Of a DNA stretch of 64,000 bases, positions 3,688 through 12,196 are shown in pieces. Under the pieces are notes generated by a model. It worked only from the letters and a program-made list of their open reading frames with translations, was not told the origin of the DNA and did not search any database. The DNA comes from Psychrobacter nivimaris (GTDB taxonomy: Bacteria; Pseudomonadota; Gammaproteobacteria; Pseudomonadales; Moraxellaceae). The translations under genes were made by a program, and so were the position numbers. The DNA lies in the NCBI RefSeq assembly GCF_009812035.1, contig NZ_VZIZ01000029.1, forward strand, positions 1 through 64,000. The letters are read 5' to 3'. Each line of letters begins with the position of its first letter. Position 1 is the first letter of the stretch.

Positions 3688-3789
3688 TCGCTTAATGTAG
3701 TAGTTCCAAATGTTTAGTCGCTCCAAATGTTCTAATTATCACTTATCGTACCGATTGCTGGTCTTCATTTTTTAACGTAGTTGAGTGTC

Positions 3790-6700
3790 ATGCTGACAGA
3801 AAATACCCCGCCTAATAATGCTCCAGATGAAGATCCAGCACAGCGTGATGCCCGTGCCGTTAGGCGTTGGTATCCGTTGTCATTTCTGCTCAAACTTCTG
3901 GTATTGGTGCTTATCGTACTAGCAATTATGTTCGCCATCTTCTTTTATGCGGCAGGGACTGACGCTGGCACGAAGTTTATATTAGAAAAAATCAGTGTTG
4001 AAACAGGTATTGATTTCAAATACGGACGCGGCAACTTGCGCGATGGTATCTGGGTCACTGATATCGATATTGAAGCGACTGAAGATCTTGAGATATTAGT
4101 AGATAAAGCCTATGTAAAAATAGGCTGGCGTGCAGTATTTGCAAAAGAAGTGCATTTAAGCGATGCAGACATCCAGACCATAGAGATTATCAATAAAAAA
4201 CCGCCTACTGGTGAACCATTTGATTATAAAACTTTAAAGTTGCCAGTGAATTTGCGTTTTGACCAAGCAAAAATTAAGAAAATTACTTATAAGCAAGTAA
4301 CCAAAGATCCTATCGTTATTCAAGACATTACGGCGCGTGACCTGACGTGGGTAGGTAGTACGGTAACCGTTGGCCGTGGTGATTTGCAGTATGCTGATAT
4401 CGTGAAAGTCAGTGCCTTACAAGGAGAGATCGACCTACAGGGCGACTATCCACTAGATTTGAGTGCGATTGCGGAAGTCAGCGCCCTTGAAAAAGCCTAT
4501 ATCGACCCATTGAATATCTCTGCAACGGGAACGCTTAAACGTACTGTCGGTAAAGTACGCAGTCGTTATAACGATAGCGATGTGAGAGGCGACTTTGTAG
4601 TACAAGGGTTAGATGCGGGTGCACCGTTTGATGCAAAACTACAGTGGGATGATATTCTTATTCCTTATGCTGATAGCCAAAACATTCGCCTACAAAGCGG
4701 TATAGCCACAGCTTCTGGTGTCATCTCTGAGATACGATTGCGTATCAATACTGAATTGACGGCCAAAGACATTCCATCAGGTCATTACCAAGGCCGCGCC
4801 GTTATTGCCAACAGTCAGCTACGTATAGATCGCCTAGATGCTGACGTGCCAGCGGGACGTTTGGCATTGCAAGGTATTCTAGACTGGAAAGACAGCTTTG
4901 AGGCCACAGTGCGTGCGACGGGTAGCAACTTCGATATTCGCCAAGCTATTCCGGCTGAGTATACTGACTTTAAAGCTTATGCGCCGCAAACCCTTAACGG
5001 TAGGCTGTCATTGCGCTATCAGCAGCAGAATGCCACTGGTAATACGCAGATCGATGCAGATTTGCGTCAGCGTGATGGTGAGCATATCAATGCCAATATG
5101 GTTCGCGGTAAAACCTCTGCCAAGTCCAAGCAAGTCGCGCCTTGGTATATTGATGCTAACTGGAAAAACCTAACCCGCCGTAACGTACCCAATATTGGCA
5201 ATATCGACAGTCCTAGTGGGCAGGCGGACGTCATCGTTCGAGGTTCGACATTATCAGTCGATGCCAATGCCGTTATCAATGAGCTAAATGCTGCCCCCAA
5301 GGGCAACTATGATCTACGTATACGTAAGGCTGGTGATGTCATTGATATCAATCGTCTTAATTATAACGGCATCGTAGGAGATTTATCCGGCACAGGACAG
5401 ATTCAGTTAGCGAGCAAACAGCGTCCACTGACATGGCAAATTGATGCCAGTACTAAAGGTCTACTCCCTAAGAAATATCGTAGCGATCTACCACTTGAGC
5501 GCTTAATAGGTAGTATAAGTGCGCGTGGTCGATTGCTAAACATCACTAAAAATGGTGTCAGCGGACAGCGTCATGTGATTACTTTAAACAACACTGATAT
5601 GCAAGCGCAGCTCGATGCGACGCAAGCAGATCGTGCTATTGGTATTACTGGTGCTGGCGATGCCAGTGTCGATATCATAGGTGGTGAGCTGTCAGTATTT
5701 GATGCGCGTTTTGATGGTCGGATTGATACAGCAGATGTACCACAAGGCCGTCTGTCCATCGATGCTGCGGGTACGCCAAAGCTGATTAGTATTCGTAAGC
5801 TGAACTATAAGGGTGAAGCGGGCGCAGTTGATGCTAAAGGGGTCATCGACTTACGTAAAAATATCGGCTGGAATATAGATGGTCGTTTTGACCAGTTCAA
5901 TTTGGGTTATTTCTTACCCAATAATCCAGCGATAATCACAGGCGATTTAAAAACCAGTGGCGAATGGCAAAATGCACCAAAGAACAGCAAAAATACTGCA
6001 GGTACTTTGCAGCGCTTTGCCGTAAATTTCAACGGCATATTGGATGCCGAGCAATTGCCAGCAGGTAAGCTGAATATAGAAGCCAGTGGTGACAGTCAGC
6101 TAATCCGTATCAACCGTTTCCGTCATGTGGGTGCGGCAGGTAGTATTGATGCCAGCGGTACCGTTGATGTGCGTCAAGGCGTTGCGTGGGATATTAACGC
6201 GGTGATGGATCGTTTTAATATTGGTTATTTCCTAAAAGATACCCCAAGTCTTATCACTGGTACGATTGATACAGATGGCCGCTGGAGTGACACGCAGCAA
6301 ATCATCAATATTAAACAAGTCAATCTGAATGGCATGCTAAAAGGGCAGCAACTGAGTGCCAAAGGCAGCCTATCAGCGAAAATGCGTTTGCCTAAAGATT
6401 TAGCAAGTTACTTCAAACAACTTCAGACCCAAGATGCTCAAGCACAATACAAGCAAGTAAATGCTTTGATTGATAGCTTAAATGCTAATAACCTTGTGCT
6501 GCGTTGGGGTGACAACTATGTCACGGCTAACGGCAATGCCAAGCAGCTACAAACCAAAATTAATATCACCAGTCTAGATCAGCTGTCTAACCAACTGGCT
6601 GGTAAAGTCACGGGCGGTGCCACGCTGTCTCAACCGGCTGGACAAGCACTGCCTACTATTTATATTGATTTGGTCGGTGAGCGACTCGCGCTACCTGGCT

Positions 6701-8784
6701 TTATATTGCGTCAAGGCCGTGTACGCGGCAAGCTGGTCAACTTAGCCAATAGCCCAAGCCAGTTAATCGTGACGGCTGAAGGCCTAGATGCTGCTGGTCA
6801 AAGTTTCGATAGTGTTAAAGCGTCTTTTAATGGGACAGAGAAATCTCATGTGGTCGATCTCAATGTGGCCAATAAGCAACTCGATGTCGGCGCTAGGCTA
6901 AAAGGTGGTTTTGATCGAGATAGGCTAAGCTGGTCAGGTGTCATTGGAAAAGGCCGCATCAAATCTAAGTATGCGACTTTGAATCAATTGCAACCTGCAC
7001 AGCTGATTGTGAATTTACCTTATAATCAGGGTGGTGAGAATCGTGATCTAAAAGTACAGCTTGCTGCTCACTGCTGGCAGGCCACGGATCAAACTGGCAA
7101 GCTCTGTCTACGAGAAAAACTAGTGGCATCGCCGGACCAAGGTGAAGTCAATGTAGCGTTGCAGAATTTAGATACATCGTTATTCTCAGTGTTCTTGCCA
7201 GAAGATATTGACTGGAATGGCAAGATTAATGGTAAAGCAATCGTCGGATGGCAACGTGGTCGTCCACCAACCATTAATACCACGCTATACTCCGACAATG
7301 GCAAGATTGGCCTCGTTCAAGATGGTGAAAGCACATCAATGACCTTGCCATACAAGCGTGTCTCTCTTATTGCTCTGTCTGTGCCTGAGGGCATCAAGCT
7401 GCGTACCGATATCAATACTGGACGCGGGGCGCGTGGCTATGCTGAGGTGGTCGTCGATCCTTATAAAGACCCTAAACCAATCTCTGGAGCATTGGTACTG
7501 AACGAGCTTGATCTTGCGATATTTAAGCCATTCTTCCCCGGTATGCGCGTCCTAAGAGGTAACGTCACAATGGCGGGTGGTCTAGGTGGTACCTTAACCA
7601 AACCGCAGTTCTATGGCGACGTAAAACTCTCTGACGGCCGTATAGCCATGCTTGATTTGCCAGTAAATCTGTCCAAAGTAAATGCGGCAGCCAAAATCCG
7701 AGGTACACAAGCGACCATTGATGGCACATTCAATAGTGGTACAGGTGAAGGCGAATTGTCAGGGACAGTCAATTGGCAGCAAAAACTGCAGGCCAAGTTG
7801 AGTATCGTCGGTGAAGGCCTAGTCATTACTCAGCCGCCATTACTGGTCGCTGAAATTGACCCTGATATTGATATTATCGTACGCCCAGGCGACCGTTATG
7901 TTGATATAAAAGGAGCGATTAGTGTGCCGTCTGCGACCATTCGTCCGCCTGAAGCCAGCGAAGATATCATCACTCAGACTGAAGATGCAGTCGTACTAGA
8001 TCGTCGTTTGATTGGTAATATCGATGAAGTACTGGCTATCTCAAAACCTTGGTCAATCAATGCTGATATCGGTGTTGATTTGGGCGATGATATCAACTTC
8101 CGTGGTTTTGGCGCCGTCATTCCATTGGCAGGTGCGATTAATGTGACTCAGAATGGTACAGGTATCATGCGTGCCAGAGGTGTTGTGCAGGTCTCACGCC
8201 GCACCAATATCAATGCCTTTGGACAAAGCCTAGAGCTGAATTATGGTCAAGTTCGTTTCAATGGCGATGTGATGAAACCGAGCTTGAGTATTGAAGCGGC
8301 CAAAACGATTAATGGCAAAACAGTTGGTCTGCGTGTCCAAGGGACGACTGAAAGCCCCAATATTATCGTCTTTAACAATGCAGGACTGACCCAGCAACAA
8401 GCCATGAACGCGTTGGTGACAGGTCGCATCGATAATAAGAGCGCCACACAAATCAGTGAGCAAGGGTTTAAATCGCAAGTGACCAATAATCTGGCTGCCG
8501 CTGGATTGAGCTTCGGTCTGAGTGGCACTCGTAGCCTGACCAATCAAATCGGGCAAGCTTTCGGTTTGCAGAGCCTAACAGTCGATGCCTCAGGTAGTAG
8601 CGAGGACACCAATGTCAACGTCACAGGTTATGTAACGCCTGATTTATACATTCGCTATGGCGTAGGTGTTTTCAACGCGCAAAACAGCCTTTCTGTTCGT
8701 TATCAATTGACACGCCGCATCTATGTAGAAGCAAGCTCAGCAGCAGAAAATGCAGTAGATGTGGTCTATAGTTGGCAGTTCTAA
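3790..8784 (+). CDS. tamB: TamB-like translocation and assembly module inner membrane protein
   Basis: Inner-membrane-anchored, periplasm-spanning partner of TamA, a member of the AsmA/TamB bridge-like group. A short cytoplasmic N-terminus and one strong membrane helix (about residues 31-54) are followed by more than 1500 residues of repetitive beta-strand sequence. Several internal repeats share pattern D(x)F(N)xGYFLxxxPxxITG (for example near nucleotides 5890 and 6205). The C-terminal TamB (DUF490) domain ends in VDVVYSWQF, an aromatic C-terminus typical of the family. At 1664 residues it is longer than the E. coli protein (about 1260). I use ATG at 3790; an in-frame TTG at 3781 is also possible and neither has a clear Shine-Dalgarno. 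Probably cotranscribed with tamA. A terminator follows at 8867. Confidence 0.9.
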   Translation: MLTENTPPNNAPDEDPAQRDARAVRRWYPLSFLLKLLVLVLIVLAIMFAIFFYAAGTDAGTKFILEKISVETGIDFKYGRGNLRDGIWVTDIDIEATEDLEILVDKAYVKIGWRAVFAKEVHLSDADIQTIEIINKKPPTGEPFDYKTLKLPVNLRFDQAKIKKITYKQVTKDPIVIQDITARDLTWVGSTVTVGRGDLQYADIVKVSALQGEIDLQGDYPLDLSAIAEVSALEKAYIDPLNISATGTLKRTVGKVRSRYNDSDVRGDFVVQGLDAGAPFDAKLQWDDILIPYADSQNIRLQSGIATASGVISEIRLRINTELTAKDIPSGHYQGRAVIANSQLRIDRLDADVPAGRLALQGILDWKDSFEATVRATGSNFDIRQAIPAEYTDFKAYAPQTLNGRLSLRYQQQNATGNTQIDADLRQRDGEHINANMVRGKTSAKSKQVAPWYIDANWKNLTRRNVPNIGNIDSPSGQADVIVRGSTLSVDANAVINELNAAPKGNYDLRIRKAGDVIDINRLNYNGIVGDLSGTGQIQLASKQRPLTWQIDASTKGLLPKKYRSDLPLERLIGSISARGRLLNITKNGVSGQRHVITLNNTDMQAQLDATQADRAIGITGAGDASVDIIGGELSVFDARFDGRIDTADVPQGRLSIDAAGTPKLISIRKLNYKGEAGAVDAKGVIDLRKNIGWNIDGRFDQFNLGYFLPNNPAIITGDLKTSGEWQNAPKNSKNTAGTLQRFAVNFNGILDAEQLPAGKLNIEASGDSQLIRINRFRHVGAAGSIDASGTVDVRQGVAWDINAVMDRFNIGYFLKDTPSLITGTIDTDGRWSDTQQIINIKQVNLNGMLKGQQLSAKGSLSAKMRLPKDLASYFKQLQTQDAQAQYKQVNALIDSLNANNLVLRWGDNYVTANGNAKQLQTKINITSLDQLSNQLAGKVTGGATLSQPAGQALPTIYIDLVGERLALPGFILRQGRVRGKLVNLANSPSQLIVTAEGLDAAGQSFDSVKASFNGTEKSHVVDLNVANKQLDVGARLKGGFDRDRLSWSGVIGKGRIKSKYATLNQLQPAQLIVNLPYNQGGENRDLKVQLAAHCWQATDQTGKLCLREKLVASPDQGEVNVALQNLDTSLFSVFLPEDIDWNGKINGKAIVGWQRGRPPTINTTLYSDNGKIGLVQDGESTSMTLPYKRVSLIALSVPEGIKLRTDINTGRGARGYAEVVVDPYKDPKPISGALVLNELDLAIFKPFFPGMRVLRGNVTMAGGLGGTLTKPQFYGDVKLSDGRIAMLDLPVNLSKVNAAAKIRGTQATIDGTFNSGTGEGELSGTVNWQQKLQAKLSIVGEGLVITQPPLLVAEIDPDIDIIVRPGDRYVDIKGAISVPSATIRPPEASEDIITQTEDAVVLDRRLIGNIDEVLAISKPWSINADIGVDLGDDINFRGFGAVIPLAGAINVTQNGTGIMRARGVVQVSRRTNINAFGQSLELNYGQVRFNGDVMKPSLSIEAAKTINGKTVGLRVQGTTESPNIIVFNNAGLTQQQAMNALVTGRIDNKSATQISEQGFKSQVTNNLAAAGLSFGLSGTRSLTNQIGQAFGLQSLTVDASGSSEDTNVNVTGYVTPDLYIRYGVGVFNAQNSLSVRYQLTRRIYVEASSAAENAVDVVYSWQF

Positions 8785-8866
8785 ATTATTTATTTAGATG
8801 ACAGCTGTTTTCTAGTTGATGTCAACTGAGAGAGTTTTTGAAATTATTTTTAAGTTGTATAGCCTA

Positions 8867-8900
8867 TAAAAAAACGCCTCATAATGAAGGCGTTTTTTTA
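8867..8900. terminator. Bidirectional intrinsic terminator between tamB and hemP
   Basis: A/T-flanked hairpin with stem AAAAAAACGCCT / AGGCGTTTTTTT. It has a T-run on both strands, so it can end both tamB (+) and the convergent hemP (-). Confidence 0.85.
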
Positions 8901-8935
8901 TAGAAGTATTGAAAAAGGTGTCACTGAAATAGACG

Positions 8936-9100
8936 TTACTTGGTTAGAATCAAGCGATTGTTGCGAGTTAGGCGTAGTCGATACTCTTCGCCTTCATGCT
9001 CGATACGTACCTCTTTAGTCAGTGCAAATAGATGTTGTGATTGCAAAGTAGGTAGACGGTTTTCACGACAGTTTAAATAACGAGAGATGACCATGCTCAT
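8936..9100 (-). CDS. hemP: Small hemin uptake protein HemP family
   Basis: A 54-residue reading frame on the minus strand. Translation begins MSMVISRYLNC and ends with the HemP-family signature RLRLTRNNRLILTK, preceded by IEHEGEEY. The family (about 50-80 residues) is found with haem-uptake loci and in some bacteria regulates haem receptor expression; its biochemical role is not settled. Start ATG at 9100 has a good Shine-Dalgarno (AAGGA, 7 bases upstream). The promoter overlaps a near-palindromic Fur box (9163-9181), so the gene is very likely iron-repressed. No haem receptor gene lies beside it, so it is an orphan here. It is convergent with tamB. Confidence 0.85.
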   Translation of the reverse strand: MSMVISRYLNCRENRLPTLQSQHLFALTKEVRIEHEGEEYRLRLTRNNRLILTK

Positions 9101-9162
9101 AGTAAATTCCTTTTGAGAAGAAGTGGCTTAAAAAATTGGCTAACCATAGCGTAATTGTTTTT

Positions 9163-9181
9163 AACGATAATAATTATCATT
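9163..9181. promoter_or_regulatory. Fur box upstream of hemP
   Basis: AACGATAATAATTATCATT is close to the classical 19-bp Fur operator and is nearly palindromic. It covers the hemP -10 element, so iron-bound Fur would block transcription. The site is read directly; the regulation is inferred from the known consensus. Confidence 0.8.
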
Positions 9182-9201
9182 TAGATTTGATAAATTTGCA
9201 A
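9173..9201 (-). promoter_or_regulatory. hemP sigma-70 promoter
   Basis: On the minus strand, -35 TTGCAA (9196-9201) and -10 GATAAT (9173-9178) are separated by 17 bp. The -10 lies inside the Fur box. The predicted leader is about 65 nt. Confidence 0.6.
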
Positions 9202-9392
9202 GGCAATTGATAAAATAAAATGCAGTTATTATGTAAACTTATCTAAATTTACTGTCATAAAATATCTCATTTGAATATTTTATCTATATAAATTAATGAA
9301 TTAGGTGGCAGATATAAATAAATCATCTAGCCTGTAAAAACTATTAAATTATCAAAAATAATCAGAGTAAACACCGAATAAAGGATATAAGT

Positions 9393-10514
9393 ATGTTGAA
9401 CGGGTCAAATCAACAATCAGAAACCAAGCCGGAAAGTAAGACGAAAACTAACAAACCTAGCATCGTAAATGTTGCAGTGGCTGTGATTCATTATAAAGAT
9501 CAGTATTTGCTTGGGTTTCGAGATGCTACTCAGCATCAAGGAAATCGTTACGAGTTCGTCGGTGGAAAGATAGAAGCAAATGAGTCAGCAGCGCAGGCGT
9601 TGATAAGAGAAGTGGCTGAAGAGACGGATATCCTGCTTGATAATAATACTATCGTTAAGCTTGGGCGTTTGCATCATGATTATGGCGATAAGCAGGTCAG
9701 CTTACAGGTTTATAAGATTGAGCTGACAGCAGAGCAGTACGAGCAGCATAAACACCGTGAGCAGGGTTTAGAAGGGCAGGCATTAACTTGGGTAATCAAA
9801 TCACAGCTTTTGGCAGGAGCGTATCATCTGCCCGCTGCTAATAAGACAATACTTGAATGGTTGAAGCTCCCATCGAAGATAACGATTACTTATCCTCTAG
9901 CACATTTCGGCACACACACTGACGCAGCAGCATGGCTACAATATCACCAAGAAAATCTAGCATCAGAATCGTGGGTATATATCCGCTTGAAGGACGTAAA
10001 TTCTAAGCATCTTGCTGAGCAACTGATGACGGCACGCCCAGATATTTTAGCGATTTTACCTAATGACGAAGAACAACCTTTGAATGTTGAGGAATCACCA
10101 ACCGCTAATGAGACAGCAACTGGCCAGCGAATAGTTGCCAAGCATTTGACACACTCAACACTGATGCAGTGTTTCGATGAGGTAGGCAGTCCTACAGCTC
10201 TCACGCAGTCGTTATCTAAAGACCATCCGCTCATTGTCAGCTGTCATGACATCGCGAGCATAACGGCAGCCAATCAACTTGCCAGCATGAGGATACAACA
10301 GGGGCTACCACCAGTGATTGGTGCTTTCGTATCGCCTGTGTTCGCCACCCAAACGCATCCTGATGACACACCACTTGGCTGGGAAGCATGGTCGGAGTTA
10401 GCAGAGTTAGCTGATATGCCTGTCATTGGGTTAGGCGGGCTGGAGCCTGCTATGCTCAATCAAGCATTGCAGTATGGTGGTATCAGTGTGGCAGGTATCC
10501 GTCAGTTTATATAA
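9393..10514 (+). CDS. Nudix hydrolase (MutT-like) fused to a thiamine phosphate synthase-like domain
   Basis: Two-domain protein. The N-terminal half (about residues 20-135) is a Nudix hydrolase. The Nudix box lies at residues 58-80 and includes the GKIEANE and REVAEET segments, which bind the catalytic metal; by family it is likely to sanitise oxidised nucleotides such as 8-oxo-dGTP. The C-terminal half (about 155-373) resembles the TenI/ThiE TIM-barrel fold: it ends with PVIGLGGLEPAMLNQALQYG and GGISVAGIR, like the phosphate-binding end of thiamine phosphate synthase. This fusion is known in gammaproteobacteria. Whether the second domain is catalytic is unclear. ATG 9393 has Shine-Dalgarno AAAGGA. 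Confidence 0.85.
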   Translation: MLNGSNQQSETKPESKTKTNKPSIVNVAVAVIHYKDQYLLGFRDATQHQGNRYEFVGGKIEANESAAQALIREVAEETDILLDNNTIVKLGRLHHDYGDKQVSLQVYKIELTAEQYEQHKHREQGLEGQALTWVIKSQLLAGAYHLPAANKTILEWLKLPSKITITYPLAHFGTHTDAAAWLQYHQENLASESWVYIRLKDVNSKHLAEQLMTARPDILAILPNDEEQPLNVEESPTANETATGQRIVAKHLTHSTLMQCFDEVGSPTALTQSLSKDHPLIVSCHDIASITAANQLASMRIQQGLPPVIGAFVSPVFATQTHPDDTPLGWEAWSELAELADMPVIGLGGLEPAMLNQALQYGGISVAGIRQFI

Positions 10515-10963: not shown

Positions 10964-12196
10964 ATGAAAACCAATAAGTTACCTGAGTCAGCATGGACTG
11001 ATTCACAGGCAGCTGGTTCTCAACTTCAGCAGCCTAAGCAATCGCTCAATGACAATGAATATGGCGATGATACCCAACAGACAAACCAAGCTAGTAACGA
11101 TGCTAGCTATAATCATGACAGCTCGAATGGCGAATATTCGCACCATCTGGCAAAAGACACGTCTTCGCAAGACAGCTATTTTGGATACAAAAGCGCCGAC
11201 AAAAGCCTTAGGGCAAAAGAGTCAGCTATGAGTAACAATGAAATAAGCAAAGATCTAAAAAATAGCAATGAGGACAATCATGACGTGGCTGGTGGCTATA
11301 AATCATCTGGCTATAAGTCATCACCAAAGAAACAACCACAAAAACTAAATGAAGATGAGCCACTAATGTCAGGACTGTTAGAGGATCAAATAGATAATCT
11401 AAACAATAGTTCTGAACAGGCCATCGACGCTGAGCAAATGAGTGATGCATCAACAAATAATTCATCCTACAAAGAAATACCGGAGCGCATATTTATGAAT
11501 GGACTGATCAAACATACAGGCATTGCTTTAGCGATTATTATACCGTTAGCAGCGTTCTCAGCCTATGCGGCCACGCCGCCAGTGAACATGGGGACTAATA
11601 ACTCGGCAACTAATGGAATGTCTGATGATGCGATGAGTGAGAAGACCACGACTGATGTACTATCGGTTAAGCCAAGTGATATTATTCATAAATCTGCAAG
11701 CACCCCAACTACCGTAGATAGCGTAGATCTGAACACTTATGCAGGTACTTGGTATGAGATTGGCCGTTTGCCAATGTATTTCCAACGTAAATGTGCAGGT
11801 GATGTGACCGCCAACTATGCACAAAAAGATGACGGCTCAGGAATCACGGTAACTAATAAGTGTGTGAGCGAGGACGGTTCAGGCATAGTGGCAGAAGGTT
11901 TGGCTAAGCCAGTCGATGAAAGCGGTAGCAAACTAAAAGTGACGTTTTTACCGAAGTGGATTCGCTGGATTCCAGTGGGCCGTGCTGATTATTGGGTGCT
12001 AGCACGTGATTCAGAGTACAAAACTGCGCTAGTAGGGACGCCTGATAAAAAATACTTATGGCTACTAGCACGCTCGCCAAATATTAGTCAAGAAACGTAT
12101 ACCAAATATCGTCAAATTGCTCAGCAGCAAGGTTATGACTTAAAAGAGTTTAAATTGACGTCGCAGAGCAACCAAACGGTGAGTCTAGCACCATAA
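10964..12196 (+). CDS. Lipocalin-family (Blc-like) protein with long N-terminal extension
   Basis: The C-terminal 155 residues are a bacterial lipocalin of the Blc type: the VDLNTYAGTWYEIGRLP motif (G-x-W strand A), a central DYWVLARD strand, and an ending with YLWLLARSPN and a helix. Such proteins bind fatty acids or lysophospholipids at the envelope. Residues 178-203 (MNGLIKHTGIALAIIIPLAAFSAYA in part) look like a signal peptide. Residues 1-177 are hydrophilic, rich in N/S/D/Q/K. They could be translated as a cytoplasmic extension, or the real start could be ATG 11495, which has a GGAG 9 bases upstream and would give 233 residues. The extension stays open for 177 codons, which argues it is coding. 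A terminator follows. Confidence 0.8.
   Translation: MKTNKLPESAWTDSQAAGSQLQQPKQSLNDNEYGDDTQQTNQASNDASYNHDSSNGEYSHHLAKDTSSQDSYFGYKSADKSLRAKESAMSNNEISKDLKNSNEDNHDVAGGYKSSGYKSSPKKQPQKLNEDEPLMSGLLEDQIDNLNNSSEQAIDAEQMSDASTNNSSYKEIPERIFMNGLIKHTGIALAIIIPLAAFSAYAATPPVNMGTNNSATNGMSDDAMSEKTTTDVLSVKPSDIIHKSASTPTTVDSVDLNTYAGTWYEIGRLPMYFQRKCAGDVTANYAQKDDGSGITVTNKCVSEDGSGIVAEGLAKPVDESGSKLKVTFLPKWIRWIPVGRADYWVLARDSEYKTALVGTPDKKYLWLLARSPNISQETYTKYRQIAQQQGYDLKEFKLTSQSNQTVSLAP

Follow-up and report, generated by a model that had tools for sequence, protein, structure and literature searches.

The window, a 64,000-nucleotide stretch of the Psychrobacter nivimaris genome, carries on its minus strand a small gene, hemP (8936..9100, with an ATG start codon), which was assigned from the open reading frame and a Pfam profile match. 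By this match (PF10636; 59.5 bits, cut-off 25), its product belongs to the HemP/HmuP/YdiE family, and the 54-residue HemP proposed in the first-pass annotation is indeed present; no second match to hemP was obtained in the 3.28-Mb assembly. A Shine-Dalgarno-like AAAAGGAA (9107..9114, minus strand), read directly from the sequence, lies 5′ of the gene. The protein bears the family motif (K/R)LILTK at its C terminus together with the conserved His and Tyr: H35, Y40, and the C-terminal LILTK are invariant in 19 sequences from the order (two entries being left out of this comparison) and in 99 from the genus, and all 28 members of hemP sequence set A2 match PF10636. An order-wide HemP profile matched only three PDB sequences, 2JRA, 2LOJ, and 4YNX (E 8e-16 to 7e-13). 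Chains of these same entries made up the top four rows of a Foldseek search (E 0.06-0.22, TM-score ∼0.4), for which the query was a weak predicted model (pLDDT 65, and below 50 for residues 1-24).

hemP is flanked by tamB (3781..8784, plus strand), which converges on it, and by a divergent gene for a NUDIX/TMP-TENI protein (9393..10514, plus strand), both assigned by Pfam. These are conserved neighbors, tamB standing beside hemP in 95 and the NUDIX/TMP-TENI gene in 98 of 99 genus loci, and at least some of the misses are short or contig-end stretches. Neither is a haem receptor, in agreement with the earlier statement that no such receptor adjoins the gene, and hemP does not lie in a haem-uptake operon, the usual though not obligatory location for HemP/HmuP. 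Farther along the window (10964-12196, plus strand) is a gene for a 410-residue protein with a C-terminal Blc-like lipocalin domain and a long N-terminal part that has no Pfam match.

A 19-bp Fur-box palindrome, AATGATAATTATTATCGTT in the direction of hemP, was located at 9163..9181 (minus strand) by motif scanning and genus comparison. It has a single mismatch to AATGATAATNATTATCATT, which we take to be the symmetric Fur consensus and against which mismatches were scored. A similar motif, TGAnAATnATTcTCA, has been described for Fur of E. coli (PMC10164565). A promoter scan predicted a sigma-70 promoter (9173..9201, minus strand) composed of TTGCAA (9201-9196), a spacer of 17 nt, and GATAAT (9178-9173), so placed that the −10 element sits inside the Fur box. 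Promoter-like matches around hemP occur at chance level (4 found versus a mean of 3.6 in shuffles); we nevertheless accept the predicted promoter because 80 of 99 genus genomes have TTGCAA with exactly this spacing to the box. In the interval that separates hemP from the convergent tamB, a hairpin resembling a terminator (CGCCT/AGGCG, flanked by runs of A and T; 8870..8899, minus strand) can be read from the sequence, and hemP is therefore probably a single-gene transcript. A similar hairpin, detected with a custom pattern, lies 3′ of hemP in 71 of 99 genus genomes, but a terminator scan of 8780-9400 reported none.

Conservation of hemP and its Fur box

hemP was found in 99 of 100 Psychrobacter genomes (72/72 plus 27/28), the lone miss (G128) being a genome that is 92% complete. 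The reading frame, whose loss in related species would have spoken against the first-pass annotation, is thus kept across the genus. The protein is identical to that of the window in 62 of the 99 genomes, and among the best 80 of 310 hemP relatives in named genomes all are from Psychrobacter, 52 with the identical 54 residues. Mean identity to the window protein is 96% for HemP, compared with 91% for the TamB C terminus and 63% for the NUDIX neighbor. Over 90 different coding sequences, synonymous change has reached saturation (pS 0.71) whereas replacement sites have hardly moved (pN 0.05), so that it is the protein that is conserved.

The best Fur-type site within 400 nt upstream of hemP shows 0 mismatches in 3, 1 in 90, and 2 in 6 of the 99 loci. 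In 297 control windows, each 400 nt long and drawn from these loci, the best site never had fewer than 4 mismatches, and in 297 two-base-block shuffles of the hemP upstream sequence never fewer than 3; because neither reaches 0-2 mismatches, a chance origin of the box is excluded. The distance from box to start codon ranges from 66 to 258 nt. The predicted Fur control of hemP is well supported by sequence. As to the earlier suggestion that hemP is a small iron-responsive regulator, the conserved box speaks strongly for control by Fur, and the regulation itself we infer from sequence.

Fur-type sites and the haem receptor of the same genome

The hemP box is one of five sites genome-wide with at most one mismatch to the Fur consensus. 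At up to three mismatches, the motif occurs at 18 sites (a few of them overlapping) versus 9 for the reversed control pattern, and the hemP box shares this motif with iron genes elsewhere in the genome. Six of the seven TonB receptor genes have an upstream Fur motif (0-3 mismatches), five within ∼160 nt; the site of the fepA-like gene lies ∼410 nt ahead of the ORF start, and the receptor with no Fur-type site is BtuB-like. Other sites precede tonB (C13:29321), an imelysin gene (C11:154826), and, at C6:77620, a short ORF resembling the bfd ORF of genome G140 (below) followed by a ferritin-like gene.

Only one of the seven TonB receptors passes the TonB-hemin model (TIGR01785), an ORF at C13:17162-19264 that scores 346 bits against a cut-off of 317. 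This haem receptor lies on a different contig from hemP, near fepA- and tonB-like genes, and has its own Fur-type box; the search for Fur boxes at haem receptors elsewhere in the genome, recommended at the outset, was thus positive for the sole receptor recognised.

Just ahead of the receptor start (L055:8139-8167, on contig C13), a block of about 30 nt, TTCTAATTT.TGA.AGTAAA.AAAGTGAG, seems better conserved than the middle of the 5′ UTR in a comparison of 30 genus loci, mostly from close relatives, and it is a candidate control element or extended ribosome-binding region. Elsewhere, the block was matched at one place only, with 7/29 mismatches, in a search of 13 genome stretches and the window (242,286 bases), and the same stretches yielded no element common to the possible HemP clients. 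The GTG start of the receptor ORF (L055:8163) is probably wrong because a 4-nt indel among relatives falls between this codon and a downstream in-frame ATG.

hemP in genomes that lack a recognised haem receptor

An orthologue of the receptor (E 1e-60 or better) is present in 81 of 100 genus genomes and lacking in 19, and in none of these 19 did a TonB receptor exceed the TonB-hemin cut-off. The haemoglobin/transferrin model, applied to 9 proteins taken from 7 of these genomes, recognised a receptor above its cut-off in two, G035 and G126. No TonB receptor of the remaining 12 scored higher than 178 bits with the TonB-hemin model, a value as low as the one obtained for the FepA-like receptor of the window genome. 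This leaves 17 genomes with no recognised haem receptor, 15 of which are at least 90% complete, an absence judged by HMM cut-offs in genomes that are mostly drafts (completeness is 83-86% for G014 and G060). All 19 receptor-less genomes keep hemP with its box (at most 2 mismatches), 10 of them with the identical protein.

Receptor presence was mapped by parsimony on a tamB tree of 95 genomes, including 17 of the 19 receptor-less ones (the 4 of 99 with no tamB match were left out). On this tree, a quick build in which several long branches meet, it changes 13 times, with at least 9 changes forced by well-supported branches. The receptor-less label is somewhat clustered (13 changes versus 15.9 in shuffles, with 10 of 500 shuffles as low). 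In three genomes (G015, G059, and G120), the receptor orthologue is fragmented or interrupted by a stop codon; assembly error is possible, and such broken orthologues would fit repeated loss within the genus.

The clearest single genome is G140, which consists of one contig of 2.65 Mb and is 100% complete. Barrel and plug models alike detect a single TonB receptor in it. This protein resembles BtuB in a blast comparison and comes nearest to the B12 models, although it stays below their cut-offs, as does the BtuB-like receptor of the window genome. No other site in G140 comes as close to the consensus as the hemP box, with its 1 mismatch; the full motif scan gave 12 matches versus 8 for the control. 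Two sites have 2 mismatches, one ahead of a bfd-like/ferritin-like gene pair and the other at C1:272341. Of the sites with 3 mismatches, one precedes tonB, and one near an imelysin gene falls 3′ of that gene. Given the sites at bfd-ferritin and tonB, the regulon in G140 would concern iron handling rather than receptors. The hemP site is likewise the only one with at most one mismatch in G002, G021, and G060, and the hemP box of G138 has 1 mismatch. Around the Fur-type sites of these receptor-poor genomes, 10 ORFs were scanned against Pfam, and names given by eye were not counted; nor were sites with 3 mismatches alone counted as evidence, the reversed control exceeding the real motif in G002, G021, G060, and G138.

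Orphan hemP genes in related bacteria

Outside Psychrobacter, the tamB-hemP-NUDIX order recurs in 2/2 genomes of one genus of the same family (g48), and the NUDIX neighbor, within 1.5-kb flanks, in 2/2 genomes of another (g49); no hemP was found in two further genomes of the family. The best upstream sites in the four g48/g49 genomes have 2, 4, 3, and 1 mismatches (4 in G291), and the box is therefore less regular in these genomes. Across the order, hemP occurs in 60 of 390 genomes, 48 of these outside Psychrobacter. In at least 18 of the 48, no more than 10 kb separates hemP from a TonB-hemin-like receptor (E 1e-60 or better), a lower bound, since a TonB receptor directly after hemP in G098 was missed by the E-value filter; the receptor is over the cut-off in at least 16. 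The corresponding figures are 0/4 for the same-family genomes and 0/16 for family f43, whose 16 hemP-bearing genomes seemingly hold orphan genes, with a receptor over the cut-off elsewhere in 7. Of six families read closely, four have a TonB receptor within ∼5 kb of hemP; in two of the four, a CobN-like gene adjoins the receptor, so that its ligand is unsure. tonB adjoins hemP in one of the six families, and in another no ORF above 555 residues lies within 18 kb. The orphan arrangement therefore seems to recur and not to be peculiar to Psychrobacter.

The nearest precedent is ydiE, which stands alone in enterobacteria. YdiE of Escherichia and Salmonella (PDB 4YNX and 2LOJ) is homologous to Psychrobacter HemP by profile and is controlled by Fur outside a haem operon, as hemP appears to be here. 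Like it, the Psychrobacter gene is a stand-alone orphan with a Fur box and is kept in 19 genomes that lack the haem receptor orthologue; with YdiE as precedent, an orphan, Fur-controlled hemP is therefore already a known kind. Unlike ydiE, hemP has tamB and the NUDIX gene as neighbors, and the N-terminal part of the protein is shorter (18 versus 27 residues ahead of the matched core). Against NF007559, an equivalog that we take to be the YdiE model, Psychrobacter HemP scores 25.7 bits, below the cut-off of 77, and so it resembles YdiE in arrangement yet is not filed as YdiE. In one study, ydiE of E. coli is called a core Fur-regulon gene of unknown function, and in strain BL21 it is reported to go down, not up, upon deletion of fur (PMC10164565). 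In Salmonella, for which no use of host haem is known, a 7.4-fold repression of ydiE by Fur has been reported (PMC3212961).

Other characterised members of the family are placed differently. ChuP of Chromobacterium violaceum is Fur-controlled, as Psychrobacter hemP appears to be, but its gene stands at the head of an operon for haem uptake; the protein is reported to bind haem with a Kd of about 18 μM and to raise expression of the haem receptor and, in trans, of a siderophore receptor (PMC9131926). Unlike in the ChuP system, no HPRE-like GCCAG repeat was found in the 5′ region of the Psychrobacter receptor. HmuP of Ensifer and Bradyrhizobium and HemP of Burkholderia multivorans belong to the same family, with a KLIL-type C-terminal motif and the His and Tyr that have been reported for haem binding (PMC9241770), and are cited as activating haem receptor genes at the transcriptional or post-transcriptional level (via PMC9241770 and PMC9131926). 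Another gammaproteobacterial HemP, that of Stenotrophomonas maltophilia, is likewise under Fur; its gene heads a hemP-hemA operon, unlike the stand-alone Psychrobacter gene, and the protein is reported to be a repressor (PMC9241770). A review terms the family small haem-binding regulators (PMC11442138). In the openly licensed literature searched, in part as titles and abstract beginnings, we recognised no paper on hemP or the haem genes of Psychrobacter and, judging mostly from listings, encountered no genus-wide test of hemP against receptor loss. A possible link of hemP with cytochrome bd was set aside, the word being an author's name in the passages that contained it.

Possible roles of HemP

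The HemP family has been described as haem-receptor regulators that act through conflicting mechanisms, and YdiE as the product of a gene of unknown function. For Psychrobacter, we consider it probable that hemP is a core gene for a Fur-repressed member of the HemP/HmuP/YdiE family whose function is wider than the haem receptor. The gene would be transcribed alone and repressed by Fur, from a fixed tamB-hemP-NUDIX locus on the chromosome. As long as iron is present, Fur-iron would cover the −10 element of the hemP promoter; when iron is scarce, Fur would leave the box, the promoter would open, and a short monocistronic message would give rise to the 54-residue protein. HemP probably acts in trans as a small co-regulator of the haem-binding type, and the C13 haem receptor is a plausible client in this strain, whereas the role that keeps hemP in place is most likely to adjust other iron genes of the Fur regulon or the cellular handling of haem and iron. 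Such a wider role may be likened to that of ChuP because ChuP is reported to act on more than one iron receptor. The sequences themselves show the family, the box, the conserved promoter, the gene order, and the persistence of hemP where the receptor is missing; Fur binding, the response to iron, and haem binding are each what they lead us to infer, and the clients of HemP are the weakest step.

The view that HemP is simply a trans activator of the C13 receptor, retained in receptor-less genomes by chance, through recent loss, or alongside unrecognised receptors, has points in its favor: the receptor exceeds the TIGR01785 cut-off, lies under a Fur-type box, is widespread in the genus, and has the conserved block directly ahead of its start codon, and an activator function has been reported in relatives (PMC9241770, PMC9131926). 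It also fits the arrangement of hemP near over-cut-off receptors elsewhere in the order. We nonetheless regard it as unlikely. Judged from these genomes, activation of a haem receptor in trans cannot by itself account for HemP because hemP and its box are kept in every receptor-less genome, over at least nine changes of receptor state, and because G140 has no recognised iron-type TonB receptor, its single one being closest to B12 models. A function of hemP beyond the haem receptor is therefore likely, and of the initial idea that the isolated gene regulates a receptor in trans, the existence of a receptor under a Fur-type box stands; what the receptor-less genomes contradict is that this receptor explains the conservation of hemP. 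HemP could instead serve mainly to buffer or carry haem in the cytoplasm, its synthesis being induced at low iron and receptor regulation being a side effect where receptors exist. Haem binding by ChuP, the match of invariant H35 and Y40 to the His and Tyr of relatives (PMC9241770), and the weaker G140 sites at the bfd-like/ferritin-like pair and tonB would all accord with this; but the haem affinity reported for ChuP is weak, and the characterised relatives affect gene expression, which makes the buffer a distinctly doubtful choice. Finally, the conserved unit could be an RNA, the hemP mRNA or its 3′ end yielding a Fur-controlled small RNA like BrrF of B. cenocepacia, which seems to be processed from the hemP message there (PMC7377471). 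The terminator-like hairpin 3′ of hemP would suit such a product. We disfavor this strongly and think it very improbable: the first 40 nt past the stop codon are on average 31% identical (an ungapped comparison, blind to indels), synonymous sites of hemP are saturated, and the three Rfam matches in 8700-9500 are all far under their gathering scores.

Extending the reading of a function wider than the receptor, we tentatively offer as a real possibility, though one short of even chances, that the conserved function of Psychrobacter HemP is that of a core low-iron factor and not receptor control, with receptor activation elsewhere a later specialisation. HemP may, for example, buffer haem or serve the Fur-type genes that remain, such as bfd-ferritin and tonB, as a haem-sensing partner. 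If true, a core low-iron role would also explain the orphan ydiE of enterobacteria. The receptor-less Psychrobacter genomes with an intact, Fur-boxed hemP, G140 included, make a receptor-independent function directly searchable.

Two of the receptor-poor genomes, G053 and G068, have three sites each with at most one mismatch, hemP included. Fur-type sites at G053:C1:302296 and 2368653 and at G068:C213:28816 lie beside genes for a FecCD-type permease and for ABC substrate-binding proteins, and perhaps reflect ABC iron uptake where TonB receptors are few.
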